Shown here piece after piece: positions 1,994 through 61,766 of a stretch of DNA of 64,000 nt (within the stretch, counting starts at the first letter, position 1; each line of letters starts with the position of its first letter). A program made the position numbers and the translations under genes. The stretch lies in the NCBI GenBank assembly GCA_023205875.1, contig CP060772.1, positions 186,001-250,000 of the forward strand, in the 5' to 3' direction. The DNA comes from Chloropicon primus. Taxonomy: Eukaryota; Chlorophyta; Chloropicophyceae; Chloropicales; Chloropicaceae. The notes beneath the pieces are model-generated. The model was not told where the DNA came from. It made no database searches and saw only the letters and a list, made by a program, of their open reading frames with translations.

Positions 1994-2555
1994 TTGGGTC
2001 CAAAACTCGGATGGACAAAAACTTCTCCTTCAGTCAAACCGCAACACCTAAAACGGGTCAAAACCCTTCGAACGACCACTCGTTCGAAAGAGGAAGAGAT
2101 GAACTTTCCTTCTGTGGCTTCTACTCCCTCTTCAAACGCTTTACTCGACCTCTGTGTCCTGTCTAACACGTCCCTCTCGGAGAAAAATCTGACCCAAAAA
2201 ACTTTCTTTTCGTCACCAAATCCTCTCCAGTGGACCAAATCTTTCGTTCAAGGGGTCAAACGAAAGATCACGACGCGTAATTTGTCTCTACGCATCCACT
2301 TTTGTCCCTCTTGACCTTCCTCGTCCCGCTTTTCCCCTCGAAGGCGCACCTCAATCGCTTGCTCCTCGAGCCAGAGCCGCCACAGAGAGAGAGAAAACTG
2401 AAAATCTGTGGCGGCGACGCTTTCGATGGAGTGTGTGAACTTTAGGACGACATCTCGGACAAAGTAATGAGTTTGAGGAGATTGTGAAGACACGAACCTG
2501 AAGAGAAACTCGTGTTCTCTCGATAGAGCCAAACCTGAGTCAAAACGGATCACTA
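1994..2555. promoter_or_regulatory. Divergent promoter UTP15/UTP21 with two palindromic elements
   Basis: The intergenic space between two start codons facing apart. It holds two copies of the recurring 24-bp quasi-palindrome. The first (2066-2089) contains perfect 9-bp arms TTCGAACGA/TCGTTCGAA (2067-2075 and 2080-2088). The second (2242-2265, extended arms 2239-2248 and 2259-2268) has perfect 10-bp arms ATCTTTCGTT/AACGAAAGAT around a centre containing AGGGGTC. The centres are about 176 bp apart and the core GACCNCT is in opposite orientation in the two copies, so each may serve one gene. Function as a factor-binding site is inferred from the symmetry and recurrence. Confidence 0.6.
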
Positions 2556-5500
2556 ATGGCTTCAAACGACTCGAGAATGGTTTCATTAGGGAAGCCTAGC
2601 ACCTCGTCGATGCCCAGCATAGTTCAGGAGGATGAGAAGACGGCAATCTTCGAGGCGTATAGGGCCATCGGTAGCATCACTGGTGAAGTTGAGTTCAATG
2701 TTCACCACCGTGGTCGCGTCGGTTACGTCACGACTGTCGTGGGAAGGACGTGGCACTTGTATACTCTGGCCAAGCTTCAGCTCAAGCTGGTGGGTCCAGA
2801 CCATCCAGGGATGATCACAAAAGTTGTGAATTGTGGTGACTTGACGATCTGTAGTGTCGGTGATGCGATCTGCTTGTCCAAGAGGGCTCACTTGATGCAA
2901 ACATTGAAGGAGGATGACAATGGGAAGAGTCTGGGGAACGTTGTGGATATGGTGCTGGTGGGAGACGCTCTGCTGAGTCTGCACTCCTCTTCCTCCTCCT
3001 CTTCTTCCTCCTCCTCTTCTTCTTCCTCCTCCTGCTGCTCCAAGGGGTCACTGATAAGGTGGAGGATCACGAGGAGGAAGAGGAGCAAGGGGATGGAGAT
3101 GGATGACGATGAGGAGGAGGAGGTGGGAGACAGGCTGGTGCAGGAGGACGTGATCGAGTTGGAGCCGGGGTTCGTGCCGAGCTGCTTGTGTCACCCGCCC
3201 GCGTACCTGAATAAGGTTGTGATCGGGTCGAAGACCGATGGAAGGGCCCAGCTGTGGAACGTCATGACAAAGAAGTGCATCTATACCTTTGACTTTGCCA
3301 AGGGAAAGGAGAAGGAGGTGGACGAGGAGGGGGAAGAGATCGCCGGCGTGACCGCCCTGGTCGTGAGTCCTGCTCTGGACGTCGTCGCTGTGGTCTTGGC
3401 GACCAACGAGATCATTCTGCACAACTTGAAGTTCGACGAGACCGTGACGGACTTCAAGCTGAACCAGACTCAAAAGAGGGTGGTAAGCGCGGTGAGCTTC
3501 AGCACGGGAATGGGGCTGCCGCTCATGGCTGTGGGGACCACCAGCGGAGCGATTTTGATCTTTGATCTGGAGAAGAAGCACCTTCACTGCGTCATGGGGA
3601 TGGGTGACGGGGGTTCTGACGTGCTGAGCCACTCGCAGAGGGTGGTTTCTCTGCACTTCCTTAGCAACAAGCCGATACTCATGTCGAGCAGCGAAGACAA
3701 CTCGTTGAAGCAGTGGGCTTTCAACGACCACTCCCTCGACAGCCAGCCGACCCTGCTTCGCTTCAGGCAAGGTCATTCCATGCCCCCGACGCTGGTGAGG
3801 CACTACGACAGAAGTGGAGGTGACTCGTACCAGCAGAGCAGCGACAGCATTGGCGGATTGAAGCTCCTGTCCTGTTCCTTGGACAAAACGTTCAGGGTTT
3901 TCTCTGCCCACAAGGATGACCAGAGTTTCGAGATGTCACAGAGAAACGTCGCTCGGAGGACCAAGAGGATCAAGCTGAGTGACTCGAGCGAGCTCAAGCT
4001 TGGCGCTGTTCGTGATCTGGCGTTCAACTCGTTGAGAGAGAACGAGTGGTGCAATGTGGTGACGGCTCACGAAGGCGAAACTTGCGCTTACACGTGGAGG
4101 CTGGGAAAGCAAGCCCTTGGAGAGTTCACCCTCCAGCCCCCTCTTTCGGAGTACATCCCATTCATGAAGCAGGACCAGAAGGGCCTTGGAGTGCAGAGGG
4201 CCATCGAGACCCACACGGATGCCCAGCATCTGATGAAGAAGCACTTGCTGTCTCCTGTGAGCTCGGTCGCCATGAGCAGCTGTGGCCACTATGCCATGGT
4301 TGGGTGCGAGAATGGAAGGATGGACAGGTACAACCTGCAGTCTGGGTTCCACAGAGGAAGCTTCTACCGCTACGATGCGAAGAACAGGATCATGCTGGCC
4401 CACAAGGCACGTGTCACGGGCATCCAGTGCGATGCCTTCAACAAGGAGATTTACAGCGCTGGCCTGGACAACGTTTTGAGGATCTGGGCGTTCAGCGCCG
4501 TTCACAAGCATGGCAAGAACAGGGGCAGCAAGAGGATGGGGGACTTGCTGATGCACGAGGAGCCCTTGAGCGGGCCCGTTGTGAAGCTGATGAACCACAA
4601 GCACAGTTCCATGCTGGGCTTCATCATTTCAGGATCCGTAAACGTGGAAGGAGATGCGGCGAGCGGAGGCAGGGTTGAGTCCGCGCCTGAGATTTGCATT
4701 TACGACACTTGGGCCAAGAGAGTGGTGCGAAGATTCAACGGCGGGAAGAAGACCGCCCAACTGGTGCACAAGCCTGGCACCGTCCTCAACGACTTGTGCT
4801 TCTCCCAAGACGGCAAGTGGCTCGTAACTTGCGGATCGGACAGACTGATCGTGATTTGGGATATTCCTGGGTCTCAAGTCTTGCAAGTGATGCAGGTGCC
4901 AGACGGGTCTGCCTGCGTGAGCTTGAGCTTGAGCCCTGGGAAGACGATGCTCGCCACGGCTCACGAGGACTGCAAGGGAATTTACCTGTGGACAAACATC
5001 CTGGTGAGCCGCCCGGGATCGAATTTGACGCTCAGCCACTCCACCAAGGCTGTTCTCGTCGACTTGCCTCTCCTCAACCCCCAGGTCGTTGACATCTCCA
5101 TGGATGTGGACGAGGAGGCGGATCCAGAGGACGTTTTGGATGTTCACATGGACGTCAGCCTGGGAGGAAATGCCTCAATGGGTCTGGTCACACTCTCTTC
5201 GCTGCCAAGAAGCTTTTGGCATGGACTCATGTACCAGGATGAGATCAAGGCGAGGAACAAGCCCAAAGAAGCTCCGAAGAAGCCGGAACACGCGCCGTTC
5301 TTCCTCCCCACTGTGAGCGGCCTGCACTCTCAGCCCGTCTTCGATGCAGAAGCGAAAATTCCGGGTTGGGACGACGGCGGCAGCGATGAGGAGGACGAGG
5401 AGGGCTCCTCCCGCATCATGAAGGGCCAGGAACTGGGGATGCACACCAAATTCCTCAAGGCCCTGGAGAGCGACGACGGCGAAGCGATGACTCACTTGAA

Positions 5501-7413: not shown

Positions 7414-7465
7414 GGAGACTGGCTCGAATTCGAACGAAACGAAGCAAGCTTAGTGCTCCAGAATT

Positions 7466-8124
7466 CAAACCAAACAAGCGACCACTCAATCAAAAGATCG
7501 TGAGTCAACGCTTCGTATCACACCCTCGTCTTCTCCTCTCTTTGCTGTCCTCGCCGTCACCGTCCTCGACAAGGCAGGCCTCTCGGGTGTTTTCTGCTTC
7601 AAATCCTGAAACACTCGAGTCTAATCGATCACTCTGGGCACCAAATGGGTCGATGAAGGTATCGACGGAAAGCTCGTGAGAAGATCTTTCGTATGATTCC
7701 TTCGTCTCTCGCCCTCGTTGCGGTTCTCGTCCTCTCCTTGTCGCTTCAATCGTCGCCTCCGTCCGATTCCGAAAGTGGATAAGGAGAGGACTTTTTGAGG
7801 CTGCCCTTCTCTGAGTGGAGAGGAGCGAGAGCATCAGAGGGGAAATCGGGGACGAAGGCGTCGGATCAAGGAGAGGCGTGAAAGAACAAGAAACCCTACG
7901 AAAGATCTTCTCACGAGCTTTCCGTCGATACCTTCATCGACCCATTTGGTGCTCGGAGTGATCGATTAGACTCGAGTGTTTCAGGATTTGAAGCAGAAAA
8001 CACCTGAGAGGCCTGCCTTGTCGAGGACGGTGACGGCGAGGACAGCAAAGAGAGGAGAAGACGAGGGTGTGATACGAAGCGTTGACTCACGATCTTTTGA
8101 TTGAGTGGTCGCTTGCTTGGTTTG
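7466..8124. repeat. 228-bp near-perfect inverted repeat between divergent genes
   Basis: The arms at 7466-7693 and 7897-8124 are equal in length and, read by eye, differ at only about four positions. They enclose a 203-bp unique spacer. Each arm carries the recurring promoter element (7648-7671 and, mirrored, 7919-7942) plus an outer half-site with AAAGATCGTGAG about 176 bp away. I see no terminal target-site duplication or coding capacity, so a transposon is not the obvious reading. The arrangement looks like one promoter module copied in opposite orientation so that each divergent gene (5878-7413 and MutS2) has its own. Near identity suggests recent duplication or gene conversion. Confidence 0.9.
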
Positions 8125-8348
8125 GCGTCGGAAGGACGTCTTGAGATTGAATTGCGGTGGTGGAGTGAGAGGGAGAGATTGAGGAGGAGAGGGGGCGACT
8201 GGAGTGGAGGGGGTGGCGTGAGAGGAGGAGTGGAGCATATCAGTGGAAAGGTTTTCTCATGAGTGTTTTGATTGTGTCTTCACTCGCTTGATGCATCTCG
8301 CTTGCATTTGGTTTCTTTGTGGAAGGAGGGGATAAAGAGATACAGGTC

Positions 8349-11676: not shown

Positions 11677-11680
11677 CTTA

Positions 11681-11788: not shown

Positions 11789-11812
11789 TTTCCGTGGACC
11801 CCTCGATTGAAG
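11789..11812 (+). promoter_or_regulatory. Promoter element of the SLT-LysM gene
   Basis: A copy of the 24-bp quasi-palindrome: TTTCCG, 12 bases including GACCCCTC, then TTGAAG. It lies 81 bp upstream of the proposed start codon at 11893. No second copy is visible at about 180 bp, where the minisatellite lies. Confidence 0.5.
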
Positions 11813-13255: not shown

Positions 13256-13718
13256 CCTTCTCCTCTGCATCTCTCGTCCCATTCTCTCTGCCTCGCCTCG
13301 TTCTCCTTCACTATAAAGCCAATCGAGTCAACCGAGGGCTCGATGGAAAGCCAAGACGATGAAGCTTCTATCTAAACCACTCCCCGCTCCCTCACTCCTC
13401 TCCCTCTTTCAAAGTTCCTCCCCTCCTTCTCACTCCCTCACCTTCCTCTGGAGCGTAGCCCTTGGCCTTCCAAGTGTCGTGGTCCGCAGCCGGTTGGTTG
13501 ACGATGACTTTGAAGTCAGCGCATCCTCCGCAAACGATTCTCGTCACCTCAGCGCCAGCAAGTCCCTTGAGTTGTGGCAAGTACTCGTTCAACAAAGCTT
13601 GTGCTCTTGTCAACGCTTCACTTGTTCCTGGTCCGCCGTCTTTTCCCATGGCGTATTTGCAGCGCCACTCCCTCGCCACTTTGGTGAAGCTCACTCCAGT
13701 GCTGCCGATCTCTACCAT
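13005..13718 (-). CDS. Small conserved protein of unknown function
   Basis: Two exons on the minus strand, 13442-13718 and 13005-13081, are joined across a 360-nt GT-AG intron in phase 1 to give 117 aa. The reading frame crosses the junction at APEE-EFLGKLKAIEG, and the C-terminal exon has its own stop. Visible motifs are FTKVAREWRCKY near the N-terminus, RIVCGGCADFKV in the middle (a CxxC) and VETQEFTC at the end. The two halves look like a repeated alpha-beta unit (helix, then a strand with Val/Cys). I recall similar short proteins in algae but cannot name the family. The intron contains a 102-bp dispersed repeat and a CA microsatellite. No targeting signal is seen. Confidence 0.7.
13297..13398 (+). 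repeat. 102-bp dispersed repeat, copy A (intronic)
   Basis: About 90% identical, without indels, to 30377-30478. Shared landmarks are TTCACTATAAAG, GAGGGCTCGAT, AAAGCCAAGACGATGAAGC and a CCGCTCCCTCACT end. This copy lies in the intron of the 117-aa gene, antisense to it; the other copy is intergenic. Neither has terminal repeats or an obvious target duplication. It contains a half-site of the promoter element (GGGCTCGATGGAAAG) and a TATA-like box, so it may be a promoter-derived fragment. Confidence 0.8.
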
Positions 13719-17330: not shown

Positions 17331-17354
17331 TTTCTTTTGATACCTCACTTGAAG
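17331..17354 (+). promoter_or_regulatory. Promoter element of the coiled-coil gene
   Basis: TTTCTT, then 12 bases containing GATACCTCAC, then TTGAAG, ending 13 bp before the ATG at 17368. It matches the 24-bp consensus and its centre closely matches that of the copy at 38692. Its position so near the start codon implies a very short 5' UTR or a role at the transcription start. Confidence 0.5.
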
Positions 17355-19390: not shown

Positions 19391-20061
19391 ACCTCTACCC
19401 TCCAGCAAGCATCCCAGTACCAAACACAAAAACACAAACACATCACGTACCTTTGTAACACATGATATATATTTTGCATCCAATCACCCAGGGTGGCGGG
19501 CTCTTTAGAAAGGGGAAGAGGAGAGGGAGGAGACCATGATGTCATCAAAAGCCTTCCTTCTCTTGCCCTTGCCTCCTCACCACACTCACTCTCACCACTA
19601 TCCTCCTCATTCTCATTCTCACTGTCCTTTTCATCGAGTGAGGGCTCTTTGGAAGCAGGAAGAGAGAGAGAGAGCAAGGGGAATGCACAATGCAAGAGAC
19701 CGCCCCCTCTTCCCTCACCATCCTCCTCCTCCTCCTCCTCCTCATCATCCTCATCACCCTCACCCACCACTGGCGGGCCTTTGCCCCGTCCCGCCCCTCT
19801 TAAAATTCAAAATCGAGGCGTTTCTGCGTCAGGAGAAAGAGTGAGTAAAAACGTTTGCATGAGGAGGTCGACGACGGGGGACGGGGCGAGGTGCGAGGCA
19901 AGGGAGGGTACTCGTGTCATTGGCTTATTCCTCACCTCGTCCTCTTTCGTTCGACCCCTCGCACGAAAAAATTGATGGACTCTTGATACTGAAGCTCTCT
20001 TCGGCGGTTACAGGAGAAGGAAGGTTCTAACGTGCGTGCTGTCGTTGTGCTTGCTCAGGTG
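19391..20061. promoter_or_regulatory. Intergenic region with promoter element for the four-helix gene
   Basis: It holds a CTC/TCC-rich stretch (19690-19770) and no supported gene. At 19945-19968 lies a clean copy of the recurring element: TTTCGT, 12 bases containing GACCCCTC, then ACGAAA. That is 94 bp upstream of the ATG at 20062. Confidence 0.55.
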
Positions 20062-22172: not shown

Positions 22173-23171
22173 GACTCTGACAAGACACCTTCAGATCTTT
22201 CCCTCGGGCTCTCACGATTCAATCCAGCAAAACAAAACGTCGTGCGACCACACAATCGAAAGATCGCGAGTTGTATCTTCCTCCAGTCCCGACCTCGAGT
22301 CCAATCCCGGCCTTTGACGCGGCCACCTTCCTCCCTCCAATGGCCTCAGTCTCGAGCTCAGCTCCCTTGTTTTCTCTTGATCCCGGTTGTTCTCCGAGGA
22401 TCCGGCAAGGAAACACGTCAAGTCGCACGTCGATGGAAAGATCTTGAGTTCTAGTTTCGTTTGATCACGAGATCTTTCCCCTCCTCGAGCTCCTTCGCAC
22501 TCCTAGGCCTCTCCCAAACTCGTCGCTTCCTTCCCTTCCCCCTTTCGTGTGTCGAGAGAGAGAGAGAGAGAGAGAAATGAGACTCTCTCTCCCACGAAAC
22601 GTAACGCTTTTGAGGTCATAACGGGTGAGTTTGGGATGAGGTGGACAACGGGAGAGGGAGAAGACGGGGGAGTGGGCGGCGTGGAGCGAATCCTTGTGTC
22701 TTGGTCTTTCGAAAGAGCCCTTCCTTGAAAAGATTGACGCTCTGGTGAGGACAGGAGCGTAGACTGAAACGAGCTCTTTCCGTCCTGTTTTCCTGGTTTC
22801 ATGGATGCTAGTTGGAGAGGTGAGTGAGCGAGGGGAGGGGCGCCAGTGGCGAGGAGGCGGGTGACGGGTGGGTTCGTCGCATTCTCCTCTTTCGAAAGAG
22901 CCGCCACTCGTCGCGTTCTGTCGAGGATGACGACTGAGACCGCAAGTTCAAGGAGGTTTGCCCCCTGGCGAGATGGATGGTTGTCGAGGAGGAGTGGCGC
23001 ACACTTCTGGCTCACACAGGCGGACTGAGGGAAGGCATCGAGTCTGAAACGTTTTCTCTTCCCTCCAGCACTTGTTCTTTCTGTGTTTTTCGTTTTTGGC
23101 TCTGCGTTTTTCTGTGGTCGCGCTCGTGCGTAGTGCTCGACGGCGTCGGAGCTCGCGAGGGTCTTGTCATC
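22173..23171. promoter_or_regulatory. Divergent PEX22/acyltransferase promoter with paired elements
   Basis: Two pairs of related sites are visible. Half-sites AAAGATCGCGAG and AAAGATCTTGAG lie at about 22258 and 22436 (178 bp apart) on the PEX22 side. Full elements TTTCGA-N12-TTGAAA (22707-22730) and TTTCGA-N12-TCGTCG (22890-22913) lie on the acyltransferase side, 183 bp apart. A GA run is at about 22555-22574. No gene is supported; the open frames here are repeat-derived. Confidence 0.6.
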
Positions 23172-29373: not shown

Positions 29374-30958
29374 GTGTGCGTGTTCAATGAAGCTGATGAA
29401 GCAAGGCAATGCAATGCTTGAGTTGTGGAGCCAAACGACTGATACAAATCAAATGGTTTGAGAGGACAGCTACTCCGTGTCTTTGACTAGGCGGTTGGTG
29501 ATGGATCAAAAAGGGAGAGGATGGTTGTAGTGAACTTTTCAAGAGACAGAGATAATGTGTTCTAATCTCTGGCCCCCCGGAGTTCTCTCTAATCCTCTCA
29601 CTCCCCTCTCTCTTGGCTGCTGCTGCTGCTGGCTGCTGTCTCTGGCGTCAAAGGCCACTGGAGTTCCTCCTTCCCTCGTTGCTTTGTCCCTCCTCAACCC
29701 TATTTTCACGATTTCATCGAGAGGCATTACACATGGAAGCCGTGGGACCACAAAAAAAGGTGGTCCCAAGAAGGGAAAACTACTTCGAAACCGTCTTCAA
29801 GAGGAACGTTCTCGTGGAACGCCGTACGATGAAAATGTCCTGGGGATAGAAGCGTTCTTCAGAAGGAGTTACTTTATGTGGAGACGCGTTCGATGGAATC
29901 GACGGGAGACGTTCTTTGTAGAACAAGTGACGTCGTTGGATGAACGCTCAACGCGAAGAGAGAACCACCTCATCAGGAGGTGGTTGCCCTCCGTCATTCG
30001 TCCGTAAAAAACAAACCCTACTCTCGAGAGGACGGGAATAAGCCTAAGGCTTTGTCTTGCGGTTTCCTTAAAGTAAAGCAATTCCTTCCCTCCCTCCTTC
30101 CTTCCTTCCTTCCTTCTCTCTTCGCGAACCCTCTTCATTCTCCTCCTCTCTCTCTCTTCTCTCTTCCTTCTCTCTCTCTCTCTCTCAGACCTTTTCCTTT
30201 TGTCTTTTGTCTCTTGGAGTTGCTCATTTGCTCATCAGCTTTGTCTTCCGTCTCTCGATGAGAGAGAGAGGAAGAGAGGAAGGAAGAGAGGAAGGAAGGA
30301 ACCAGTCCATTCGCTCCGCTTCGCACCTGAACTCCTCCTCCTCCCCCCCTCTCCCTCTCCTCCTCCTCCAAGGCTTCTCGTTCTCCTTCACTATAAAGTC
30401 AATCGCGTCAAGCGAGGGCTCGATAGAAAGCCAAGACGATGAAGCTTCCATCTAAATCGCTTCCCGCTCCCTCACTTCCGTCCTTCACCGCCTGCCGCGC
30501 GCACAAAGGTTCTCTCCTCCTCTCCTCCTGGTGGTACACTGCTTTCCCGACCCCCTCCGGAGAAAAGGGGAAAAAGCCAGCAAGGACGAGGCGGCGAGGG
30601 CCAGAGCCACGGCAGGTGAGTTCGAGTCGAGATTGAGGAGGTAGGACGCGCAAGAGGTGGGGTGATGCTTAGATCATTGGAAGATTCTGGTCGCGCTCTT
30701 TCGATACGTACCTTTTTCGGAAGGAATGGCGTCATGTGGAGGACGCGGCGGACGAAAACGTCCCACTGAGAGTGACTGACGACCTTGTTTGATGGACACA
30801 ATACTCGCTCACTCAGGTGGAGTTCGCAGCGGAGGGGGGGGCGAGCAACCGGAGGAGAATCTGACGTAACATCCGGCTCGTTCTGTAACGCACGGGATTC
30901 ACGTTCTTTTTTTTTTTGTGTGCGTGTCGCAAGTTGTCGGAAACTGGCTCCCTAAACC
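29190..30958. promoter_or_regulatory. Divergent intergenic region with simple repeats and promoter element
   Basis: No gene is supported over 1.77 kb. It contains CAAT/CAAC tetranucleotide repeats (29233-29293), TC runs (29305-29375, 30140-30185), TTCC repeats (30085-30115), a copy of the dispersed repeat (30377-30478) and GTTACG motifs near 30853 and 30886. At 30699-30722 is a promoter element (TTTCGA, 12 bases with TACCTTTT, then TCGGAA), 237 bp before the cytidine deaminase frame. GAACGTTCT-like motifs near 29808 and 29912 may serve the HDEL gene. Confidence 0.55.
30377..30478 (+). repeat. 102-bp dispersed repeat, copy B (intergenic)
   Basis: Gap-free match to 13297-13398 with about ten differences, same landmarks (CTATAAAG, CGAGGGCTCGAT, GACGATGAAGC). 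Both copies allow a short similar peptide beginning MKL.SK.LPAPSL, but this is probably incidental. Confidence 0.8.
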
Positions 30959-33193: not shown

Positions 33194-33495
33194 CCATTCG
33201 CTTCGTTCCAGAGGTCGATGGAAAGAGAATTTCGTAATGCTTCCACCTCCATGGGTCCTCGCCGCCCTCGACGCCGTCCTCGTGCCGAAATTCGGTCCAG
33301 AACTCACCTGACTCGTGCGAAAGAAAACAGAACGAGGGCACGTGCCTTTCAGTGCTTCAAAATCTTCACCAGCACGCCATTCGCTTCGTTCCAGAGGTCG
33401 ATGGAAAGAGAATTTCGTAACGCTTCCATTGATCTGGGTCCTGGACGCACTCGATGCCGTCCTCGTGACGAAATTCGGTCCAGAACTCACCTGAC
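33194..33495. repeat. Tandem duplication, period 183 bp, in the MPC promoter
   Basis: Copies at 33194-33312 and 33377-33495 are about 85-90% identical. Each includes the promoter element CTTCGT, 12 bases with AGAGGTC, then TGGAAA (33201-33224 and 33384-33407), followed by TTTCGTAAYGC and an end reading TTCGGTCCAGAACTCACCT. The elements lie 212 and 395 bp upstream of the MPC start codon. Confidence 0.9.
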
Positions 33496-33610
33496 TTTTT
33501 AGAGGTCGACGAAACCTCTTTTGTTGTGATTATTGATATTTTTTGGGAGGAAATCACCCTTCTTTCGTTTACACCAAAACACACACACACGGATGAATGA
33601 GACTTTTCTT

Positions 33611-33960: not shown

Positions 33961-34455
33961 CCGGGAGTGGGAGCAATGCAGCGGAAGCTTTCTTTGGTAT
34001 CACCGGGGCGGGGGTGGGCTTCCAGGGAAAGCGAAGTCCGCGACCTGCAGTCCTCGGGTTCGAGGAGATCCTTGATCGGGAACGCTTGACGACATGATGA
34101 TGATGATGATGATCGTCGTTTCCTGCTGTGGTGTGCTGTGGAACGTCACTGGCGGAACATTCATTTCAAGACGTCCGCTAAGAGACTGCATGTTTCGGTC
34201 GTTCTTATAGATTACGCTTGTTGTGGGTGGTGTGTTGTGTTGTGTTGTCGAACGTCTATGAAAGAATTTGTGAAATGCGCTGACCGAAAGGCTGCTGAGG
34301 GGGGGAGCAAGAGGGCCAAAGGACCTTTCCATTCTCCTGAGAAGAGGGGAGAGAGAGGAAAGAGAGAAGAGAGCAGAGAGAGGAGGAGTGGAGGAAAAGG
34401 GGATTGAGGTGGATTGATCATCATCATACCTTGATCGGATTCTTTGATCACAAAA
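33961..34455. other. Intergenic, kinesin-9 5' flank
   Basis: No gene is seen. It contains a GAT run (34094-34113), TGTGTTG repeats near 34230 and a purine-rich GAGAGGA stretch (34340-34400). Confidence 0.7.
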
Positions 34456-37942: not shown

Positions 37943-38052
37943 CCTCTTCCTCTGGTCTTCGTGTCTTGGGTTCTCTGCTTTGATGGCTGAAGAGATCGAA
38001 AGAAAATCCGCTTTCAGCTCCTCGTAACGCTCGAAAAAAAACCGTTACAAGG

Positions 38053-38336
38053 GGTCGATGGAAAGATCTCGAGGCATGGAAGACAGCTGCGCCATCTCTT
38101 TCCCGTAATCGACGCCCTCGTAACGAAAATCCTCCTCAAAAGTGACTCACTCCAGCACACCTCGAACCAAGCTTCACTCTCACGTTTCGTACTCAAGCTT
38201 GTCGTGAATGGCGTCAAAATCGTCGATGGAGGAGGTCGATGGAAAGATCTCGAGACGAGGAAGACATCTTCCCGGTCTCTTTCCCCCGTAACCGACGCCC
38301 TCGTAACGAAAATCCTCCTCAAAAGTGACTCACTCC
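38053..38336. repeat. Tandem duplication, period about 182 bp, in the SOD promoter
   Basis: Copies beginning GGTCGATGGAAAGATCTCGA at 38053 and 38234 continue to a common end AAAAGTGACTCACTCC at 38153 and 38336. The start is a half-site of the promoter element (AGGGGTC or GGAGGTC, two bases, TGGAAAGAT). They lie 111 and 292 bp upstream of the SOD ATG at 37942. Each copy also contains CGTAACG. Confidence 0.85.
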
Positions 38337-38616: not shown

Positions 38617-38961
38617 CGGAGGGAAAGGGAGGAGAGGGGTTGAAGAAGAGGGGATCGAGAGACGCATCATTCGAAAGATCATCTCACGAGCTTTCCATTG
38701 ATACCTTACTTGACTGGTTTTGGGTTCCGAATCAGTCGCTTCCATCGACGGAGAAGGCATTGAGTTTGAAAGCAGAGGGTCCATTCCGTTCCCCGTTTCG
38801 GAGGGAAAGGGAGGAGAGGGGGTGAAGCAGAGGGGATCGAGAGACGCGTCGTTCGAAAGATCATCTCACGAGCTTTCTAGGGAGTGGTCACTCGACTGGT
38901 TTCGGGTTCCGAATCAGTCGCTTCCATCGACGGAGAAGGCATTGAGTTTGAAAGCAGAGGG
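38617..38961. repeat. Tandem duplication, period 182 bp, in the bL17m promoter
   Basis: Copies at about 38617-38779 and 38799-38961 share GAGGGGATCGAGAGACGC, TTCGAAAGATCATCTCACGA, TTCCGAATCAGTCGCTTCC and GGAGAAGGCATTGAGTTTG at a constant 182-bp offset. Promoter elements TTTCCA-N12-TTGACT (38692-38715) and TTTCTA-N12-TCGACT (38874-38897) sit at the same place in each. The second copy ends 81 bp before the start codon at 38978. Confidence 0.92.
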
Positions 38962-40382: not shown

Positions 40383-42070
40383 CACGACGACGCTATCTAA
40401 ACCTCAAAACACACACACAACCAAATCTTCTACTTCAACAGGCCTCTCTCTCTCTCTCTCTACTGTGTCCCGTCGTGGGTTGAACTGAACTGAACTCTCG
40501 GAGCACTTTGGTAACGCACTCTCGTCCGTTAGCTAGCGAAGATTTTGAAACACACATCCTCCTCCTCCTCCTCCAGCACCACCGTGTCTTACCTCTTTCA
40601 ATGCCTCTCCCTCTATGAAATGGAATGAAATGATGTTCTTCTTGTTGATGAAGATGATGAAAGTTGAATTCTGTTCCTGTCGTCAGAGCAAAACACGGGA
40701 CAAGAGTTTCAGTAACGCACTCTCGTCCGTTACTAAATGAAGGAACACATCCCTCCTCCTCCTCCTCCTCCTCGTCGTCTTCTTACCCGTGGATGGTGCT
40801 GGTCTGTTGCCATGCCAAAGGACAAGCGAGAGAGAGAGAAGCGATGCGATGCGATGCGATGAAGAAAACGAAGAAGAAGAAGAAGTCAGAGATCACCAGA
40901 GGGAATGGTTTAGGGTAAGGACGAAGGGGATGGATGCTTCCGTGGTCGTCACGTACCTCTTGCCCTCAATGCGCTCCTCAATCCCTCTCTCTCGAGACGT
41001 TCTCCGCGTCCTCTTGATCTCCGCAAGGGAGAACATTTCCAAAATTAAATTCCAAATTAAAACAAGGGAAGATCTACTCTACACGTAATTCACATTTGAA
41101 GTACTGGAAACATTTCTGTTCTTTAAGAGACATCTAGTCATTATGAAGAGATTTACCACTACGTGTAGATCTGTTCAGTGTGATGTAATAGAACAATTGT
41201 TACTAGGTAATGTGAGAGAAAGAACGTGTCACGAGTGTAATAGGAAAGCCGAAAGAGATCAAAATCGCCGAGAGATCCATCGCGCCCAGAGAGAGAGGGA
41301 GAAGGCGAGGCATTCCGCGGCGTGTTTTGACCCACTGGAGGGTCTCTTTGGTGGTAGAAGGTCTCCATAGATTGAATATTCATCTCGAGATCTTTCGAAC
41401 GAACTCTCGCTCGTCCATTTTGGTTCATGTTCGAGCAAGGTCCACGTGAATTCGTGATTTCGTGTTTCAGGAAGTTCGAGTGTGCATCGCCAACAAGGAA
41501 AGGGAAGAGAAGGGGAGGAGATCGAGGGTATTGAGGGGGGAGAGCATCACAAGGGGAAGATTCGTGTCGAGATCTTTCGAACGAACTCTCGGACGTCTCG
41601 TCTGACGCGAGAAATACCAAGTTGGTCGAAAGATTCTTCCAAGGCAAGGACGAGGAGACACCTACTGGAGTGTCAGGTGAGTTTTCGTTTTCGGCGTGCG
41701 TTACGAGGAAGAGAGCGAGACGTTACGAGTTGGCGAGGTGCATCTCATCACGATGTCTCGAAACCCGAACATGACGCTTCTCCCTTCCTCGATGGAGCGC
41801 ACGCAACGAAGAGATGAGAGAGAGAGAGAGAGAGAAGAGATGAGAGAACCAATTTTTTTGTTCGTCTGGTGGCTGGATTGTTGTTGTGTTGGATGGTTCA
41901 TTCCACTCCACTCCGTTCCATCAGTCTTCTCCTTTGTCGTGGGTGATCTCTCCCTCGTAAACTGACACGCTCCTCCCCCTCCGCCTCTCTCTCTCTCTCT
42001 CTCTCGTAGGAGTACTGGACAACTGAAACGGGTTTCGGGTTGGTTGGCAATCCATCCATTCCCTTCTGAT
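40383..42070. promoter_or_regulatory. Divergent CHMP1/PIMT-BTB intergenic region with paired elements
   Basis: No gene is supported over 1.69 kb. Elements GATCTTTCGAACGAACTCTC start at 41389 and 41571 (182 bp apart); as 24-mers they are 41393-41416 and 41575-41598. Another direct repeat, GTAACGCACTCTCGTCCGTT, occurs at 40511 and 40712, each copy followed by CTC/CCT repeats. A 200-bp AT-rich island lies at 41030-41230, in marked contrast to its surroundings. CGATG repeats occur near 40840-40861. Confidence 0.6.
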
Positions 42071-56800: not shown

Positions 56801-59800
56801 AGGACAACCATTCCTGGCCACTGGACAATCCAGTCGATACGAGGAGTTTGGGAGTAAGCCTCGATTCCACGTCCGGCGACATCGTGGACGGATTCAAACA
56901 TGGCGGCCTCGACCTCAACGAGCCACTTCTCGACTGATCCGTTCGCCTTTGCCGGCTCCACCTTGTTCTTGAACGGCACGGTCTCCTTCTCCACACTCGT
57001 CATTCCCGTGATTTCCATCTTGTCCCCCTCGAAGACGAGCTTGTCGATTCCTTCGAAGCACTTCTTCATGTGAGGCTGCACCCTGGTGGGATCCTTGGTC
57101 TCACTCAGGATCTCAAGCATCTCGTCGTTACTCAGGAAGAAGAACCTTGGGAAGAAGAGACGCTTCTTCTCCAAGTAAGCCGCCAGACCCTTTTGGACCG
57201 AATCGAGCAACTCGTTGCACCTGATCAGTTGCTCCAGGTTCTCGGCGTCCTTGGCGATCGTGACCACGACGGGGGTCTCCTGAGTCTTTGCCATAAGCTC
57301 CCTCCAGATAATATCGACTTCCTGGAACTTGGAGCCCTCCTCTGGCATCTGCTTCACGATATCCTCGCTGCTGAAAATTGGCTCCAAGTAGAGCCAAGTC
57401 TGCTGGCACTTGAGCCAGTTGTCGATCAGATCTTGGAGCGTCTGCATCATAGTCTCGAGGTCGTTCACCTGGTCCTTGAATGGCTTGGCGAATGGGCTGG
57501 CGCTCATGGCCTGGATCTTCACGATCTGGTCGTCCAGAATGGCCTGAATGTCGTCAGTCGACGCCAGAATGAACGTTCCTGAGTCCTTGTACGCCATGCA
57601 CATGAACTCCTTTCCGTCCCACTCCTTGTTCATCTTCTGGAGCGTCTTAAGCATGGACCACTCCTTGGAGGCAACGCCACTGATGTTCTCGACGGCCTCC
57701 ATGTGGTCCAAGATACCGTACTCGATCAGCTTGCGGATGCTGAAGTTCACGTCCTGGTGGTACGGCTTGTTGATCACCGTGAAAATTTGCTCCCAGTGCC
57801 TTGGCTGAAGCGCGGGGTTGGCCAGCTCCCTCAGCAAAGGAAGGTACTCCTTGAAGCTGTCGATCTCGTCCTTCAGCCTGTACACCACCCTATCCTCCTT
57901 GTTGGCCTTTGCCATCTTGTGCGCGCTCCTCACGGCATCGTCCACGGTCGTTTCGATGTCCTCGATATCCAACGGGTTCTGGACATCAAAGCGCTCGTCC
58001 AGCCAGCTGTAAACGTTGTTCTCCCACACAAAGAGCGCGTTCCAGGTGTTCCTCCTGCTGTCAAGCTCCTTCTGAGTCAAGGACACGTTACTGAAGTCGT
58101 CCTGTGGCATCTGGAACAGCGCCTGGTAGTGCCTGAACGTTTCCGCCCTGCGGCTTCGCTCGTCAATCGCGGCGGCGACCTCCGCAAGGTCCTTCAGCAC
58201 AGTCTCTGGCTCCGACTCGGGGTCGATGTAGCTGCCTCCGTGGAGCTCTGCGAGCATGGCCAAGAGGGATTCGTTCATCTCGACGATCTCGTCGTTCAGC
58301 GTCGTGATGTTGTTCGCCTTGTTCTCCTCGATGAACTCGGCGACGTCATCAAGGGCCGTCTTGAAGGCAGAGACGTTCTCGTGCAGGTCATCCAAAGCCA
58401 CCTGGTCCTTCATTGGGATCTTCATCTCGTAGAGGTTCAGCATGTCGTACATGTCGTCGATCATGTTGCTCTCCGCCAGAATCTGCTTCCTGGTCTTCAT
58501 GGTCTGGTTGTGGATCTCGAGACACGTCACGAAACCATCGAGGACTGGAGGGCGCTGAGAAAGGTCGTTGACCCTCTTGGCAAAGCCCTCGTTCGCCTTG
58601 GTGCAGTGCTCCCTGGCCACGACGAGAAGCCTCATCTTCATGGAATCCAAGGCGTTCGAAGTGACTTGCTTCAACTCCTCACGAAGCGTACGGGAATCGA
58701 TGTAAAGCACGCCAACAACGTTGCTGATCTTCATCGACCTCTCGAGCTCGTTCCTCCACTCCCTTTGCATGGACATGTCCTGCCTGAACTCCTGGACGGT
58801 GCTCTCCTTCTTGTCGTAAGCATCGGCGTCCCACGACTGGCCGAACTCGAAGACTGGTCTGTGGTTCTCGAAGATTGTGGCGTACTCGGTCGCTTCGCCA
58901 AAAGACGCGGAGATGGCGTCGCCGCAAGACACCCGGAGCTGGGAGAACTTGGGCGTGTTCTGCACGATCTGCACGGGGTTCGGGCCCGTCAGCCTGTCCT
59001 CGAAGAAAGAGGAGAAGGAGCGCATGAAGAGAAGCCTTGGGATTCCGTTCACGCAAGAAATGATTCCTTCGATGATCACGTCGATGTTCTTCAAGACGTG
59101 AGACTCCGGTGGGTTGAAGGACATTCCCTCGCTGGCGAACCCGACGGTGCAAGAGAAGAAGCCCTTGGCCCTGCTGGGGTTCTGCAAAATTCCAAGCAAG
59201 TGCTCCACGGTACCGATCGCTGAGCCGACGATCGCTTCCACGAGCATGTTGTCCACCAGCCTGATGAAGGCTCCAAGCATCTTGGCCTCCTCCACGACCC
59301 TCTTGTAAGTCCGGGCCCTCTCGATCTTCTCCTGCTTGACAGCGACCATGGACTTGGTCTTGCTAACGTTTCCAGGAAGCAGGCTGATTCCCGTCCTGTC
59401 CCCAATCTCCTTCTCCACGCTCGCCCTGTACTGCCTCTCTTGCGTGATCACCTCCCTCGCCACCTTCTCCAGCACCCGCTGGATTCTTTCCACGAAGCCC
59501 TCGATCGCAGGAATCGCCTTTTGGATCCTGTGCTGCTGCTGCTGCTCCGCGAACTCGTCGATGTTGTAGCAGTGGTTGTGGGAGATGTTGCTCAGCGCCG
59601 TGTTGGACACGTCCGTGACGAAGCCGTACACTTCCATGAGCGTCGGACAGAATGTCGGCTTGGCCAAGAAGAGCTTCTTCTTCAGCCTCTCTCTCACTTG
59701 CCTGTACAAGGTGTGCCTCACCTTGGACCACCAGCTCTTGAACATCTTGTTCACGATGTAGTACTTGAAGAATTTCATCTGCGTCAACAGGTTGAAGATC

Positions 59801-60561
59801 GATTGCTCTCTGATCCACTCGCCAAGCGGCGTGAACTCGGCGTGAGTGGCGCTCTGGACGTGAACCACGCCGCTTGAGCTAATGGTGAAGTGCTCCATGT
59901 TCACCTTCTGCCTGTCCACCACCTCCAACTGGTAGGGGTTGAAGTTGTCCCCTTGCGGCATAGTGTTGCAATGAAACAGCTTGATCTGAGCGTTGTGCCC
60001 GTGCCTGATGTAGTAATCGATCACGTCCTTGCTGGTCTTGATGTTCGCTACCTCTGGGTCCACGTCACTGTCGTCGTCCGAGGATCCTCCGTGGTTCACC
60101 ACGAGGGTTGACTCCACGCCCGCGGGCTCCTCCACCACGACCTTCTCCTTCTCCTCCTCCGCGGAGGTGGCGGTGTCCTCCAACGAGGGCAAAGTCACCG
60201 CAGGCGTCGTGGGAAGCGGCATGCCATCCAATGCCTTCCCCTTCTTCGCATGCGTCCTCCTCTTGCTTCCGGCCACCGTCCTCTTGCGAGAAAAGTGGTG
60301 GCTGATATCTTTCAAATCTTCGGACAATTCAGCGACAGCCATTTTAGAGCTGAACCCTTTGGCGTATCCTCCGTTCCCGGGACCTCCATGCTTCATCCCT
60401 CCTCCGCTGCTTCCATTCTTGCTCTTTCCATTCCCTGCCGTCCCCGGCTTCAAGTAACTTTGAGACCACTTTCCAGGTTCATTCAAGAAACCTGTCACAG
60501 CAGTCGTGTTCTCCATGCTTGAGCCTCCCTCCGCTCCCAACTTGTCCAGCAACCTCGACAT
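47815..60561 (-). CDS. Inner-arm axonemal dynein heavy chain (DNAH6-like, single-exon)
   Basis: An uninterrupted 12,747-bp frame encodes 4248 aa from ATG 60561. Domain order: a Ser/Gly-rich start, the N-terminal stem (EHFTISSSGVVHVQ and MFKSWWSKVRHTLYRQVRE resemble DNAH6), linker, then six AAA modules. P-loops are GPAGTGKTETTKD (AAA1, near residue 1410), GLPMGGKSGSYK (AAA2, near 1690), GPTGTGKSVYLQK (AAA3, near 2150) and GVGGSGRQSLSR (AAA4, near 2530). The stalk coiled coil with microtubule-binding tip, AAA5/6 and C-terminal domain (GWDIASRTLSESRPRVLF) follow. A highly acidic Glu/Ala insert (about 1924-1977) lies between AAA2 and AAA3. It would drive ciliary bending. The subfamily call is tentative. 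Confidence 0.93.
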   Translation of the reverse strand: MSRLLDKLGAEGGSSMENTTAVTGFLNEPGKWSQSYLKPGTAGNGKSKNGSSGGGMKHGGPGNGGYAKGFSSKMAVAELSEDLKDISHHFSRKRTVAGSKRRTHAKKGKALDGMPLPTTPAVTLPSLEDTATSAEEEKEKVVVEEPAGVESTLVVNHGGSSDDDSDVDPEVANIKTSKDVIDYYIRHGHNAQIKLFHCNTMPQGDNFNPYQLEVVDRQKVNMEHFTISSSGVVHVQSATHAEFTPLGEWIREQSIFNLLTQMKFFKYYIVNKMFKSWWSKVRHTLYRQVRERLKKKLFLAKPTFCPTLMEVYGFVTDVSNTALSNISHNHCYNIDEFAEQQQQHRIQKAIPAIEGFVERIQRVLEKVAREVITQERQYRASVEKEIGDRTGISLLPGNVSKTKSMVAVKQEKIERARTYKRVVEEAKMLGAFIRLVDNMLVEAIVGSAIGTVEHLLGILQNPSRAKGFFSCTVGFASEGMSFNPPESHVLKNIDVIIEGIISCVNGIPRLLFMRSFSSFFEDRLTGPNPVQIVQNTPKFSQLRVSCGDAISASFGEATEYATIFENHRPVFEFGQSWDADAYDKKESTVQEFRQDMSMQREWRNELERSMKISNVVGVLYIDSRTLREELKQVTSNALDSMKMRLLVVAREHCTKANEGFAKRVNDLSQRPPVLDGFVTCLEIHNQTMKTRKQILAESNMIDDMYDMLNLYEMKIPMKDQVALDDLHENVSAFKTALDDVAEFIEENKANNITTLNDEIVEMNESLLAMLAELHGGSYIDPESEPETVLKDLAEVAAAIDERSRRAETFRHYQALFQMPQDDFSNVSLTQKELDSRRNTWNALFVWENNVYSWLDERFDVQNPLDIEDIETTVDDAVRSAHKMAKANKEDRVVYRLKDEIDSFKEYLPLLRELANPALQPRHWEQIFTVINKPYHQDVNFSIRKLIEYGILDHMEAVENISGVASKEWSMLKTLQKMNKEWDGKEFMCMAYKDSGTFILASTDDIQAILDDQIVKIQAMSASPFAKPFKDQVNDLETMMQTLQDLIDNWLKCQQTWLYLEPIFSSEDIVKQMPEEGSKFQEVDIIWRELMAKTQETPVVVTIAKDAENLEQLIRCNELLDSVQKGLAAYLEKKRLFFPRFFFLSNDEMLEILSETKDPTRVQPHMKKCFEGIDKLVFEGDKMEITGMTSVEKETVPFKNKVEPAKANGSVEKWLVEVEAAMFESVHDVAGRGIEAYSQTPRIDWIVQWPGMVVLVVTAIFWTKGVTQAITDGKVTEYGKQLTSDLLEVVGKVRGQLTKLERQTLGALVVMDVHARDVVDNMSKSNVSSPEDFDWAAQLRTYWEPRPDAEAGTPEAEEKTAMLRMMSAEVEYGYEYLGNSSRLVITPLTDRAYRTLIGAIHMTLGGAPEGPAGTGKTETTKDLARALARQCVVFNCSDSLDYIAMGKFFKGLASAGAWACFDEFNRIDLEVLSVVAQQVLDLQRAIGAKVETFMFEGTELRLKCSAWCSITMNPGYAGRSELPDNLKALFRTVAMMVPDYALIAEIILFSNGYLSARECSKKIVQCYKLCSEQLSSQDHYDYGMRAVIAVLRAAANLKRAFPEEDELVLILRSIIDVNLCKFLSHDLPLFKGITNDLFPGVVLPKPDYDQLEEHMRKACVKFNLEETPYFFRKTIELYEMIQVRHGLMLVGLPMGGKSGSYKVLAEALTTIRESGDESQEKVNYHCINPKSITIGQLYGQFDPITHEWTDGVLAVTFRSCASEFNAGISTNRRWLVLDGPVDAIWIENMNTVLDDNKKLCLNSGEIISMSRVMTMIFEVNDLAVASPATVSRCGMVYLEPSELGWQPILESWLREDLPKSTGGRVPGLASYLRQIFTLVLPESLRFLRREIKEIAPTSDSNVACSMMATLASTLHQIQAAFADHAIKEEVKEEEEEAEEKESGEGEGEAEAEEAKEGAEEKEKQASPVKKPVEEEPPEALADELRQIVDNYFLFALTWSVGGTAGNLEGRKHFTEMVMNLIMLKKTTYTSRGGENYTFGVEENSPKLPKFTLSKNDITLQTIEAGDEAKDSFSSLISLHDFVYDGATNTWSKWESRIDLDEFMKNAVSSNEIIIPTIDTVRYTYLLQSALERGVRAEGKGCAMSMPLLLVGPTGTGKSVYLQKALRVLDAAEWAPAVNVNFSARTSANITQTMIDIKLDKRRKGIYGPPPGKHCVIFIDDLNMPQLETYGAQPPIELVRQFADHGGWYEGLAGEWTFRNMIDVILCSAMGPPGGGRNPVTGRFLRHFAVTGILEFTAATLMTVFNSILTLGFENVSSTIKVEIPKVVQATNAVYNEVMAKLLPTPSKSHYVFNLRDFARVVRGVMLIAPKGKNKKSSIEESDDIKSSFIRLWGHEILRVFYDRLVDDNDRDWFIGFLREVVAKDFSVNLDELFEHIANDGKVDQESLRNCFFGDYMTSDDFDRADLKTEGKLTYVENQDSLAIIERMEMYLKEYNALSKSQMNLAMFLYAIEHTSRICRVLKQPGAHMLNVGVGGSGRQSLSRLAAYICAIETFQIAVSKSYGLEEWKEDLRKLIRRAGGDGVEMMFLFSDTQINDEVFVEDINNLLNTGEVPNLFPQDEKPAVMEQARLLAKKLKDPAANGESPQELWDFFVKMTKQNLHVVLCMSPVGDAFRERLRQFPSLVNCCTIDWFQQWPADALEAVARTKLNAIDELLKSVAASEEVAKQQRLELIKICKMFHADTRNTSYEFKEKTGRISYVTPTSYLELLSTLATILKKKNNELETSRKRYVVGLDKLNFTATQVGAMQDELTALKPNLEKTVKETEELMERIKVEKAEVVEPKAAVVDREVAEAQTKGDQANAIKMECEEALAEAIPALEAAMAALDTIKAADINLVKNFKNPPAAVKLVLEAVCVCLDVKPARIADPAGSGKKIEDYWEPSKGLLSDKGFIDRLKTYDKDNVPVKVIDKVRSQYTSNPDFTPANAAKGASAAEGLCKWVFAIDSYDRVAKIVAPKKKALAEAEAEYNEVMVGLKVKQAELQELQDKLALLENQLEESITEKQRLENEVELCAQKLERAEKLIGGLGGERQRWSEAAQDLAEQQQNVLGDVLIAAGFISYLGVFTMPFREGLTKKWTAECKKRGIPCSDVFTMQQCLGDPVKIREWSIAGLPNDQLSIDNAIVVANARRWPLFIDPQNQANKWVKKMEQSNNVQVIKFTDSDYMRTLENAVQFGLPVVLENVGEEIEPSLEPLLLNQTFKQGGVICIKLGESVIEFSNDFRFYITTALRNPHYLPEVSVKVTLLNFMITPHGLADQLLGVVVAEERPDLEEQHQQLVIESAENKRKLTEIENKILHVLSSSEGNILEDTTAIQILSEAKVVSREIEEKQAIGEETQKMIEETRTGYKSCGEYNAMLYFCVADFANIDPMYQYSLSWFIALFVRAIHSSKKSDKDASEESSLETRLDDINSYFTYSLYCNICRSLFVKDKLLFAFVLSLKILETKGEFTAAEQQFLLTGGIGAESKYDASKNPVSDLIEDRVWESVCKLSGACPKPFATLPEHVERNSTDWQELFETADPFLMNLPPPYCKGDPNEPTPAQKLLLIRSMRPDKFVPAVSSFVESSMGRKFTEPPTFDLELSYNESSCICPLIFVLSIGSDPTAALLKYAEDRDMASKLSVISMGQGQGPKAAKLIEQGIESGGWVLLQNCHLAASWMPTLEKIYEGIKPETCEPDFRLWVTSMPSKAFPLSILQNGVKMTNEPPSGVRANLKRSLGLDPISDEEFFESCPKSRDFKRLLFGLCFIHAFVQERKKFGPIGWNIPYSFNDSDLRISVRQLHMYVGKSGDELPFAALKYTIGECNYGGRVTDDKDRRLLSTLLDLIYDEKITGEEFNLSSSGVYRIPKNNTLQAYVEYVDALPTIPRPEVFGLHDNADITKDLNDTNQMIATLITTMGEAGGGGDSGGQEQVVRAMCSDILERLPPNFDIEKVQKAFPVLYEQSLNQVLTQEMLRYNRLTTIVRNSLVNVIKAIDGTIVMSSDLEKVYNSLSIGKVPPMWMSKSYPSMKPAAAYVEDFFGRLNMLQSWYEAGAPPSAFWLPGFFFTPSFCTAVLQNYARKNKLAIDTIAFDFEMLDMDPEIYKNGESPTNGVYVYGMYLEGCGWDIASRTLSESRPRVLFEPSPVIWFKPVQTKDLKERPCYACPVYRTADRRGVLATTGHSTNFLMFLNMPTDKPEHHWTMRGVCMLLSLSY

Positions 60562-61766
60562 GAATGCAACTCAACGCAAGTGGCTTCACAAAATAAAATA
60601 AGAAAACTTTCCCCAAAGTCAAGTTAAGGAATCCCTCAAACCTTGCACTGCAATGGAATCGAATGCCTTTGGGAAATGGCAAATGCTTAGCTTAGAGAGA
60701 GAGTTACCTCATCCCTTAATTTCCTTTCGACTCCAAAGTGGAGGTGGAGTCAAAGAGTGAAGGGCTTTGAAAGGGTTTCTTAGGATTATTTTTCTTTCTT
60801 TCTTGTTCTTATCTTTCACAAACACTTTGCCTTCCCCTTTCTCCTTGTGTCCCTTGTATCCCTCCTCCTCCTCCTTGGCGCTCCTCCGCGCTGGAAGGTC
60901 AACCTTACGCCTTCCCCCCTCGGCTGCACCCCTTGGGGGCTCGGTTTTGAATCTTGCGCCATGTGACGTTCGAAAAACGAGAACGTTTGTATTCATTCTA
61001 ATGTAGTGGGACCTTCTATGGGACCATGAAAGTCCGTAAACAAGAGGAACGACACATAACGAATCATAAGCTATACGACGACCGTTCATTCTTTCCACGA
61101 AGTTCCACGGGATGCTTCTCTGCCTTGCTCGTGATTACGGTAATATGACAAAGAGGTGACGTCTTGAGAAGAACGTCGACGACGTACACTCGAATATACA
61201 CCGTACACTCCGTCGTAGACCGGAAACGCACGGCGCCAAAAGAAACGCCCACGATCTCGTCCGAGGGAGAGGGAAGAAGAGGTGAGTTTTTCGGCGGATT
61301 TGAGGTGTGACGACGGAATCTGAGTCGACAGGAGACGACATAGGGACAAGCGTCTTGTCGAGATCTTTCGAACGACCCCTCACTCGAAAGATTTCACCGA
61401 GGATTTTGGTGAAGAACATTGAATGGAACCCCCCTTGACTGACTTTGGTTTTTGGCATGGTGAAGGAGGTGAGTTCACTTTCGACGACGGAGGGTAACTA
61501 GAGAGCGGTGACGAAGGAGATCATCAAACCTACGTAGTTATCGTCCTCTTCTCATTCTCTTTCGAATGACCCGTCGGTCGGTCGGATCGTTTTTCCTGAC
61601 AACTGACTCATTGACTCAGCACAGAGGAGAGGAGACAGAGAGAGAGAGAGAGAGAGATTGAGGCACTCGACAGCGGAGGAGTATCTTTTTTTTTTTGGAG
61701 CTCAGCACGGGAAGCATCTCTTCCGGTTTTCTTTTTCTTTTTCTCCAGTGATTCGTTGTTGTTGAG
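60562..61766. promoter_or_regulatory. Divergent dynein/MYND-CS intergenic region
   Basis: No gene is supported. On the MYND-CS side are two promoter elements: TTTCGA, 12 bases with GACCCCTC, TCGAAA (61366-61389; arms extend to ATCTTTCGA/TCGAAAGAT at 61363-61371 and 61384-61392) and TTTCGA, 12 bases with GACCCGTC, TCGGAT (61560-61583), 194 bp apart. Near the dynein start, GACTCCA/TGGAGTC arms occur at about 60729-60754. Confidence 0.55.

Follow-up and report, generated by a model that had tools for sequence, protein, structure and literature searches.

What is the function of the sequence element that recurs in front of many genes of the green alga Chloropicon primus RCC138? The question is raised by a 64,000-nucleotide stretch of chromosome 19 (positions 186,001-250,000, here called the window), in which an initial annotation had listed 18 copies of a 24-bp quasi-palindrome. 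As delimited here, the element is an oriented core of ~60 bp centred on CTTTCNNNNGANMCNTY. It is probably a real, undescribed control signal and not a product of chance. Judging from the sequence, we consider it slightly better than an even bet (about 0.53) that it is a promoter-proximal control element of C. primus acting from the transcribed side.

A 64-nt profile was built from the 18 sites of the initial annotation and searched with nhmmer at a threshold of E<1e-3 in a local sample of 264 kb, made of the window and 20 pieces of 10 kb. These pieces (labelled L014, L016, L017, L020, L033, etc.) were chosen by hand, seven of the 20 lying on contig 19 beside the window, and local densities are not genome averages. 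The search gave 57 non-overlapping matches, 25 in the window and 32 spread over 13 of the 20 other pieces. The 18 sites are real and were all recovered, though by construction, as the profile was trained on them; their E-values are not independent, while those at other loci are. Two matches, 38676(-) and 38858(-), probably reflect the dyad read in reverse and were excluded before the local counts of splice-like sites, flanks, symmetry, upstream skew, gene context and spacing; L014 8475 was additionally excluded from the first four of these. Coding DNA was called by a codon-usage gene model. Genome-wide counts cover 17,584,162 bases in 20 contigs, and statements about individual genomic places rest on the first 100 matches listed per search.

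In the 57 aligned copies, information spans about -27 to +42 relative to TTTC, with the consensus CTTTCSAWNGAGCC..TC..TYGAA. Conservation is strongest at CTTTC, GA, C/CT and TYG, and is mainly compositional outside the core. A G/A-rich stretch precedes the core at -75 to -30, and CTTTCGAAAGAGCC is a frequent core variant among the matches listed. The dyad symmetry noticed at the outset is present: the TTTC/GAAA centre is 0.46 complementary, against 0.05-0.36 at 20 other centres. It forms only the middle of the oriented core, which is thus more than a mere palindrome, and the fixed form TTTC-N16-GAAA fits just four of the 18 listed sites (2242, 19945, 22707 and 61366). This strict form occurs five times in the window, about one occurrence being expected by chance for eight fixed bases at equal base frequencies; the fifth, 45675, is not a profile match. 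The sites at 2066, 2242, 33201 and 33384 read better on the minus strand than as first assigned. Among the three proposed half-sites, 38053 and 38234 were recovered (E 2.6e-4 and 8e-6) and 22256 only weakly (E 0.005). Three copies are new: 8095(+), 13349(-) and 30429(-), with E-values of 9.8e-4, 9.5e-7 and 1.1e-6.

The dyad consensus fits binding by a putative dimeric factor. An RNA hairpin was rejected, as no compensating changes were found at the dyad positions of the local copies; known structured RNAs and tRNAs are likewise ruled out in the window, where no Rfam match reached the gathering cut-offs and no tRNA was detected. Chance palindromes are ruled out by reversed-pattern controls. A strict 22-mer pattern has 413 + 397 = 810 matches genome-wide and its reversed pattern none, and a relaxed 17-mer has 605 + 566 = 1,171 matches against 27 + 17 = 44 for its reverse. 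Since 32 of the 57 local profile matches fit the relaxed pattern, the total can be estimated roughly as (1,171-44)/0.56, or about 2,000 copies in the genome.

The copies are located almost exclusively in non-coding DNA, as had been proposed: called coding DNA holds only two of the 57. Sorted by gene context, 55 copies comprise 41 in divergent, five in tandem and one in convergent intergenic DNA, two in coding calls and six at locus ends. The divergent majority arises partly because divergent intergenic DNA is the largest class of the local sample (40.4 kb, against 25.2 kb tandem and 10.1 kb convergent). In divergent context, 37 of the 41 copies point at the nearer gene (p=1e-7); the coding segment that a copy faces lies at a median distance of 349 nt and the other one at 805 nt. 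The individual distances to the segment faced range from 11 to 1306 nt, more widely than the 14-470 bp first given, and in a number of copies an ATG follows only 37-112 nt downstream. In tandem context four of five copies point along the genes. The genes served are functionally unrelated, as the initial annotation had stated: Pfam families were matched at E<=1e-6 by 15 of 20 downstream proteins, with no shared theme visible, and a common regulon was rejected.

Same-strand copies are spaced in a preferred way. Genome-wide, 65 + 32 = 97 pairs are 167-197 bp apart and only two are 198-228 bp apart, the 97 including overlapping pairs inside near-identical arrays and duplicated segments. The median spacing is 180 bp, with clusters at 167, 170, 177-178 and 182-183 bp; the clusters at 167 and 170 come largely from near-identical arrays, e.g., on contigs 14 and 16. 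Locally, all 13 same-strand neighbours less than 600 bp apart are spaced 167-194 bp. The preferred pairing at ~180 bp is therefore borne out. Flank similarity separates these 13 pairs into two kinds. In four, one flank is more similar than in 99% of random element pairs, whereas nine have no detectable homology in either flank and are nevertheless 176-194 bp apart; one of these nine, 41393/41575, shares a similar core only. Recent duplication is thus not the whole explanation of the spacing, and a satellite or recent tandem repeat was rejected as its full explanation. Old, since-diverged duplications may stand behind the spacing of the flank-unlike pairs.

The cores of the window are as follows, together with the two arms of an inverted repeat that carries three of them.

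2066..2089, minus strand: core pointing at the UTP15 gene (ATG 1993, distance 96; PF09384), E 1e-7
2242..2265, minus strand: core 176 bp upstream of the 2066 core, without flank homology to it, E 1.7e-11
7453..7710, minus strand: left arm of the inverted repeat (258 nt, 94% complementary), carrying the element of the leftward gene
7648..7671, minus strand: core in the left arm, divergent partner of 7919, E 1.7e-10
7880..8137, plus strand: right arm of the inverted repeat, with two elements for a rightward MutS-domain gene (MutS_V, PF00488)
7919..7942, plus strand: core, E 5.6e-11
8095..8118, plus strand: weak core, 176 bp after 7919, E 9.8e-4
11789..11812, plus strand: core, E 1.3e-10
13326..13349, minus strand: new core, a misfit in convergent context by the coding calls, E 9.5e-7
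17331..17354, plus strand: core with an ATG 37 nt after its start, E 6.9e-7
19945..19968, plus strand: core, E 1.1e-9
22707..22730, plus strand: core, E 1.3e-9
22890..22913, plus strand: core 183 bp after 22707, flanks non-homologous, E 4e-5
30406..30429, minus strand: new core, divergent partner of 30699 (270 bp), E 1.1e-6
30699..30722, plus strand: core preceding a deaminase-domain gene (start codon at 30959; PF08211), E 1.5e-7
33201..33224, minus strand: core with CAG^GTGAGT 83 nt upstream and no clear 3' splice end, E 1.6e-8
33384..33407, minus strand: core whose unit is the first in a tandem of two beginning with GTGAGT (spacing 183 bp, upstream flanks homologous), E 7.7e-9
38041..38064, minus strand: core (proposed earlier as a half-site) of an Fe/Mn superoxide dismutase gene (PF00081), E 2.6e-4
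38222..38245, minus strand: core (proposed earlier as a half-site) 181 bp from the 38041 core, upstream flanks homologous, E 7.9e-6
38692..38715, plus strand: core of a ribosomal protein L17 gene (PF01196), E 3.2e-10
38874..38897, plus strand: core in the second copy of a tandemly duplicated 182-bp unit (period 182 in Tandem Repeats Finder, TRF), E 3.5e-8
41393..41416, plus strand: core, E 9.4e-10
41575..41598, plus strand: core 182 bp after 41393, core similar and flanks unrelated, E 4.6e-10
61366..61389, plus strand: core of a CS-domain protein gene (PF04969), E 5.4e-12
61560..61583, plus strand: core 194 bp after 61366, E 3.7e-6

The core at 13326 lies in a 110-nt stretch that is 89% identical to 30377-30486. 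Just upstream of the element at 11789, positions 11100-11677 hold a tandem repeat array of 79-bp units with CAAAGTAACCGATGCA in the consensus unit. The weak half-site at 22256 belongs to a subthreshold match at 22239-22280, accompanied by another at 22411-22458 (both on the minus strand, E 0.005 and 0.004); their 5' ends are 178 bp apart, in keeping with the preferred spacing. The pair at 33.2-33.4 kb is adjoined by a tandem duplication without a profile match (33610-33716 and 33795-33901, 185-bp spacing, 93% alike). Elsewhere, identical or near-identical 80 letters are found at element pairs on contig 19 (near 296,510, 309,506 and 345,865, and near 302,414 and 315,407) and on contig 8 (near 491,501 and 539,189), which suggests segmental duplications.

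Upstream of the core, three sequence features have preferred positions. One of them resembles a 5' splice site. GTRAGT occurs 67-97 nt upstream of TTTC in 100 + 75 = 175 genome-wide matches, whereas its complement occurs twice in the same interval; the 175 count a few elements repeatedly, e.g., contig 4 at 650,174-650,182. The distance is narrowly distributed, with 54 of the 100 matches listed at 82-84 nt and 73 at 80-85 nt. Locally, a GTRAG-type site is present at -95 to -65 in 16 of 54 copies, in 11 of them directly after AG. The copies linked to GTRAGT are a minority, at most 175 of the 1,171 relaxed matches. The other two features emerge as sums over 41 first-of-array elements, not as properties of each: runs of A or T are concentrated at -160 to -120, and at about -140 the sign of the GC skew and of the AT skew flips. 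The upstream profiles are similar for the 12 elements with and the 29 without a GTRAG site. On the downstream side, ACTGA is most frequent at +40 to +60, a bin that holds 11 occurrences over 57 elements.

The clearest case of an intron-like arrangement is L033 1501(-), where GAG^GTAAGT, the core, ACTGAT, pyrimidines and ACAG^ follow each other within about 176 nt. An ATG 8 nt past this 3' end opens a frame that meets no stop in the 72 residues translated. As the good frame begins only after the core, the intron-like stretch would be an intron of the 5' untranslated region (5'UTR). An upstream coding exon was rejected here, since the frame from an ATG just before the 5' splice-like site stops after 21 residues once joined; this shifts the balance slightly from the transcribed-side reading towards a classical promoter element. 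At 33.2-33.5 kb, two units led by GTGAGT follow each other; the first closes with a CAG that abuts the GTGAGT of the next, and for the second no clear 3' splice end was seen. At L020 2415, a unit of ~180 nt likewise starts with GTGAGT and ends with CAG immediately ahead of the next GT. Automated detection of coding introns gave only five examples, too few for a splice-site consensus. In the window, the putative 5' splice sites upstream of plus-strand cores are the following.

22625..22630, plus strand: GTGAGT, 82 nt before 22707, preceded by CGG and not by AG
30616..30621, plus strand: GTGAGT after CAG, which may open a 5'UTR intron whose candidate 3' end ...TCACTCAG lies about 94 nt past the end of the core at 30699
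61282..61287, plus strand: GTGAGT after GAG, 84 nt before 61366
61469..61474, plus strand: GTGAGT after GAG, 91 nt before 61560

For the ATG just upstream of the GTGAGT at 61469, no frame longer than 67 aa was obtained with the 3' ends tried.

With a splice-like site, a poly(A/T) peak and a skew switch all upstream of it, the core is probably part of the transcript, ~130 bp from its start. Transcription would begin near the skew switch, which precedes the core by ~140 bp, so that the core would be found ~100-130 nt inside the transcript, either in the 5'UTR or halfway along a first intron of ~180 nt. Such a core would occupy linker DNA after the +1 nucleosome, and further copies would fall into the linkers that follow. 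Binding by a sequence-specific factor, possibly dimeric, would then set the nucleosome array in place and either boost initiation or steer it. The divergent partners can be read with the same measure: locally they peak at 250-290 and 430-460 bp, and genome-wide the partner word GAAAG occurs 237 times at 253-283 bp against 72 times at 328-358 bp (about 35 are expected per distance window at equal base frequencies). We infer that ~270 and ~450 bp represent 1.5 and 2.5 repeats of ~180 bp. A bolder extension can be put forward only tentatively, and we are inclined to doubt it. The 5' nucleosome array of C. primus would be DNA-encoded, one oriented element marking each linker outwards from a bidirectional promoter centre and first introns measuring one repeat with the element at mid-intron, so that initiation, phasing and first-intron position would share a ruler.

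Several observations weigh against the transcribed-side reading. No GTRAG stands upstream of 38 of the 54 local copies, and for no copy was an upstream coding exon established. The skew switch is partly made by the divergent partner's own G/A-rich stretch, and in the partner count GAAAG is a word of only five letters and reciprocal pairs are counted twice. L017 8543, in tandem context, points opposite to its genes, and the copy at 13349 sits between convergent ones. Large domains lack the element, such as the first 1.02 Mb of contig 1, where the strict pattern has no match, and promoters there must manage without it. Start site, splicing and linker position are, moreover, all deduced from the DNA sequence.

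Part of this evidence would suit a classical core or upstream promoter element, with the core marking the start site itself or placed just upstream of it and the tandem copies serving as alternative promoters. The 38 copies without GTRAG may have such a role, an ATG only 37-112 nt downstream fits it, and divergent pairs could frame a bidirectional promoter of ~270 bp. We nevertheless regard it as rather unlikely for the element as a whole, given the 175 splice-like sites at a preferred upstream distance against two for the complement, and the position of the poly(A/T) peak and the skew switch, ~140 bp ahead of the core. The intron-like stretch of L033 also encloses the core, which requires transcription from upstream of it. 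The ~180-nt GTGAGT...CAG units abutting the next GT (33.4 kb and L020 2415) lead to another candidate, a small mobile element of ~180 bp, introner-like or of another kind, with its own splice sites, spread and tandemly amplified at 5' ends of genes and leaving the core as an ancestral relic. Among the matches listed, arrays reach up to six nearly identical copies (contig 16 near 318,341-319,206), and similar copies were recognized by eye in the 80 letters listed on contigs 4, 7 and 18 (near 360,147, 442,134 and 336,388). Introners are also reported to favour linker DNA (PMC9860276, in its accessible text). An amplified unit would, however, have to account for 57 copies that share mainly composition beyond the core, for nine of 13 pairs with unrelated flanks and for the many copies lacking GTRAG, which makes it improbable. 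The near-identical arrays on contigs 13, 14, 16 and 19, together with the four local pairs that are clear duplicates, could finally reflect a mechanistic tendency of promoter DNA to duplicate in ~180-bp units, the spacing being functionless. This artefact is very improbable, as the nine pairs without flank homology keep the spacing of 176-194 bp and the divergent partners stand at a preferred distance likewise.

The element is not in general use in this genome. Contigs 1-4 carry 89 strict matches (13.5 per Mb) and the remaining contigs 721 (65.6 per Mb), so that the density on contigs 1-4 is one fifth of that on contigs 5-20, a split that assumes strict matches to be listed in contig order. 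On contig 1, all 26 strict matches lie at 1.03-1.66 Mb and none in the first 1.02 Mb. The relaxed pattern has eight matches in that first part, where about 2.6 are predicted from the reversed controls (44 over 17.6 Mb), against 35 at 1.03-1.66 Mb. Coding DNA takes a larger share of seven element-free pieces of the local sample (16.5 kb non-coding in 70 kb) than of the window together with ten pieces that bear the element (57.8 kb in 164 kb), L014, L016 and L033 being left out of both groups. A k-mer ranking of these 16.5 kb yielded no convincing replacement motif. The sister strain C. primus CCMP1205 has 8,693 genes according to the accessible text of PMC12301720. With an estimated ~2,000 copies against that number and such uneven densities, the suggestion of a general promoter architecture of the lineage does not hold. 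What stood of the earlier interpretation is the association with promoters, the use by unrelated genes and the spacing of ~180 bp, and its observation of the sites was confirmed in part. In the testable part, matches were not equally frequent in coding and intergenic DNA, and neither the peak at ~182 bp nor the bias to 5' ends was missing.

Other words over-represented in the element-bearing non-coding DNA are CGTAACGC/GCGTTACG, CCTAAAAC and AAACCCTA, the last of which we take to be telobox-like. Among the window proteins are eukaryotic WD40 and kinesin domains, on account of which a bacterial source was dismissed. A dynein heavy chain is encoded on the minus strand at 47815-60561 in a single uninterrupted frame of 4,248 aa, and a KIF9-type kinesin at 34444-37005. 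Vegetative cells of the alga are without flagella; flagellar genes are described as retained (PMC6731263, accessible text).

Among the titles and abstract openings found for Chloropicon promoter motifs and introners and for algal linker or first-intron motifs, with thin coverage of subscription journals, none describes such an element. The word 'promoter' is absent from the main text of PMC12301720, and the accessible text of PMC6731263 gives 0.50 introns per gene with a mean of 152 bp and does not mention such an element. Cis elements acting only from inside the transcribed region are said to be poorly understood (PMC6760150). A genome of 17.6 Mb with an estimated ~2,000 copies, whose preferred geometry relates them to the centre of the promoter, the 5' splice site and the length of a nucleosome, would allow direct tests of whether such elements act via nucleosome phasing and whether the nucleosome repeat shapes first introns in compact algal genomes.

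Among known systems, the Drosophila downstream core promoter element (DPE) is likewise oriented, inside the transcribed region and at a fixed position; it lies at about +30 and is not known to be repeated at nucleosome spacing, whereas the C. primus core would lie at about +130.

The remaining comparisons refer to the accessible text of each paper. In Chlamydomonas, introns near the start raise expression (PMC7419008). Unlike for the C. primus element, no significant consensus motif was reported there and a post-transcriptional effect was argued. The introners of Micromonas and Aureococcus share with the present units that they are small algal GT...AG units tied to nucleosome linkers (PMC9860276). 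They are, however, recognized as families of highly similar introns, while in C. primus conservation is largely confined to the core and splice signals are missing from the majority of local copies; a few dispersed similar copies were seen, rather than near-identical dispersed introns. As for insertion within coding genes, 55 of 57 copies lie outside coding calls, where introns would lie as well, and four local copies stand between two same-strand coding segments along which they point. In green algae, linkers between the first nucleosomes downstream of the start site are also known to be marked periodically, by N6-methyladenine (6mA) and 5-methylcytosine (5mC). The first linkers carry 6mA in species including the prasinophytes Micromonas and Ostreococcus (PMC12695648, whose main text has zero occurrences of Chloropicon). 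These marks are modifications of ApT or CpG, unlike the conserved sequence element of C. primus. A functional parallel would be the Arabidopsis motif TTNGATYTG, which raises expression only near the gene start, from promoter-proximal introns or unspliced transcribed sequence, and whose copies are additive (PMC6760150). The sequences differ: by eye, a partial likeness is limited to TTTCGATT variants, and only TTCGATT variants share seven letters, which places the core outside TTNGATYTG. No fixed distance to a splice site and no nucleosome-length spacing are mentioned for the Arabidopsis motif. The C. primus element might act in the manner of this promoter-proximal intron motif (intron-mediated enhancement) while standing outside its family. 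The Arabidopsis motif and linker 6mA, without amounting to proof, together make action from the transcribed side and from linker DNA plausible.

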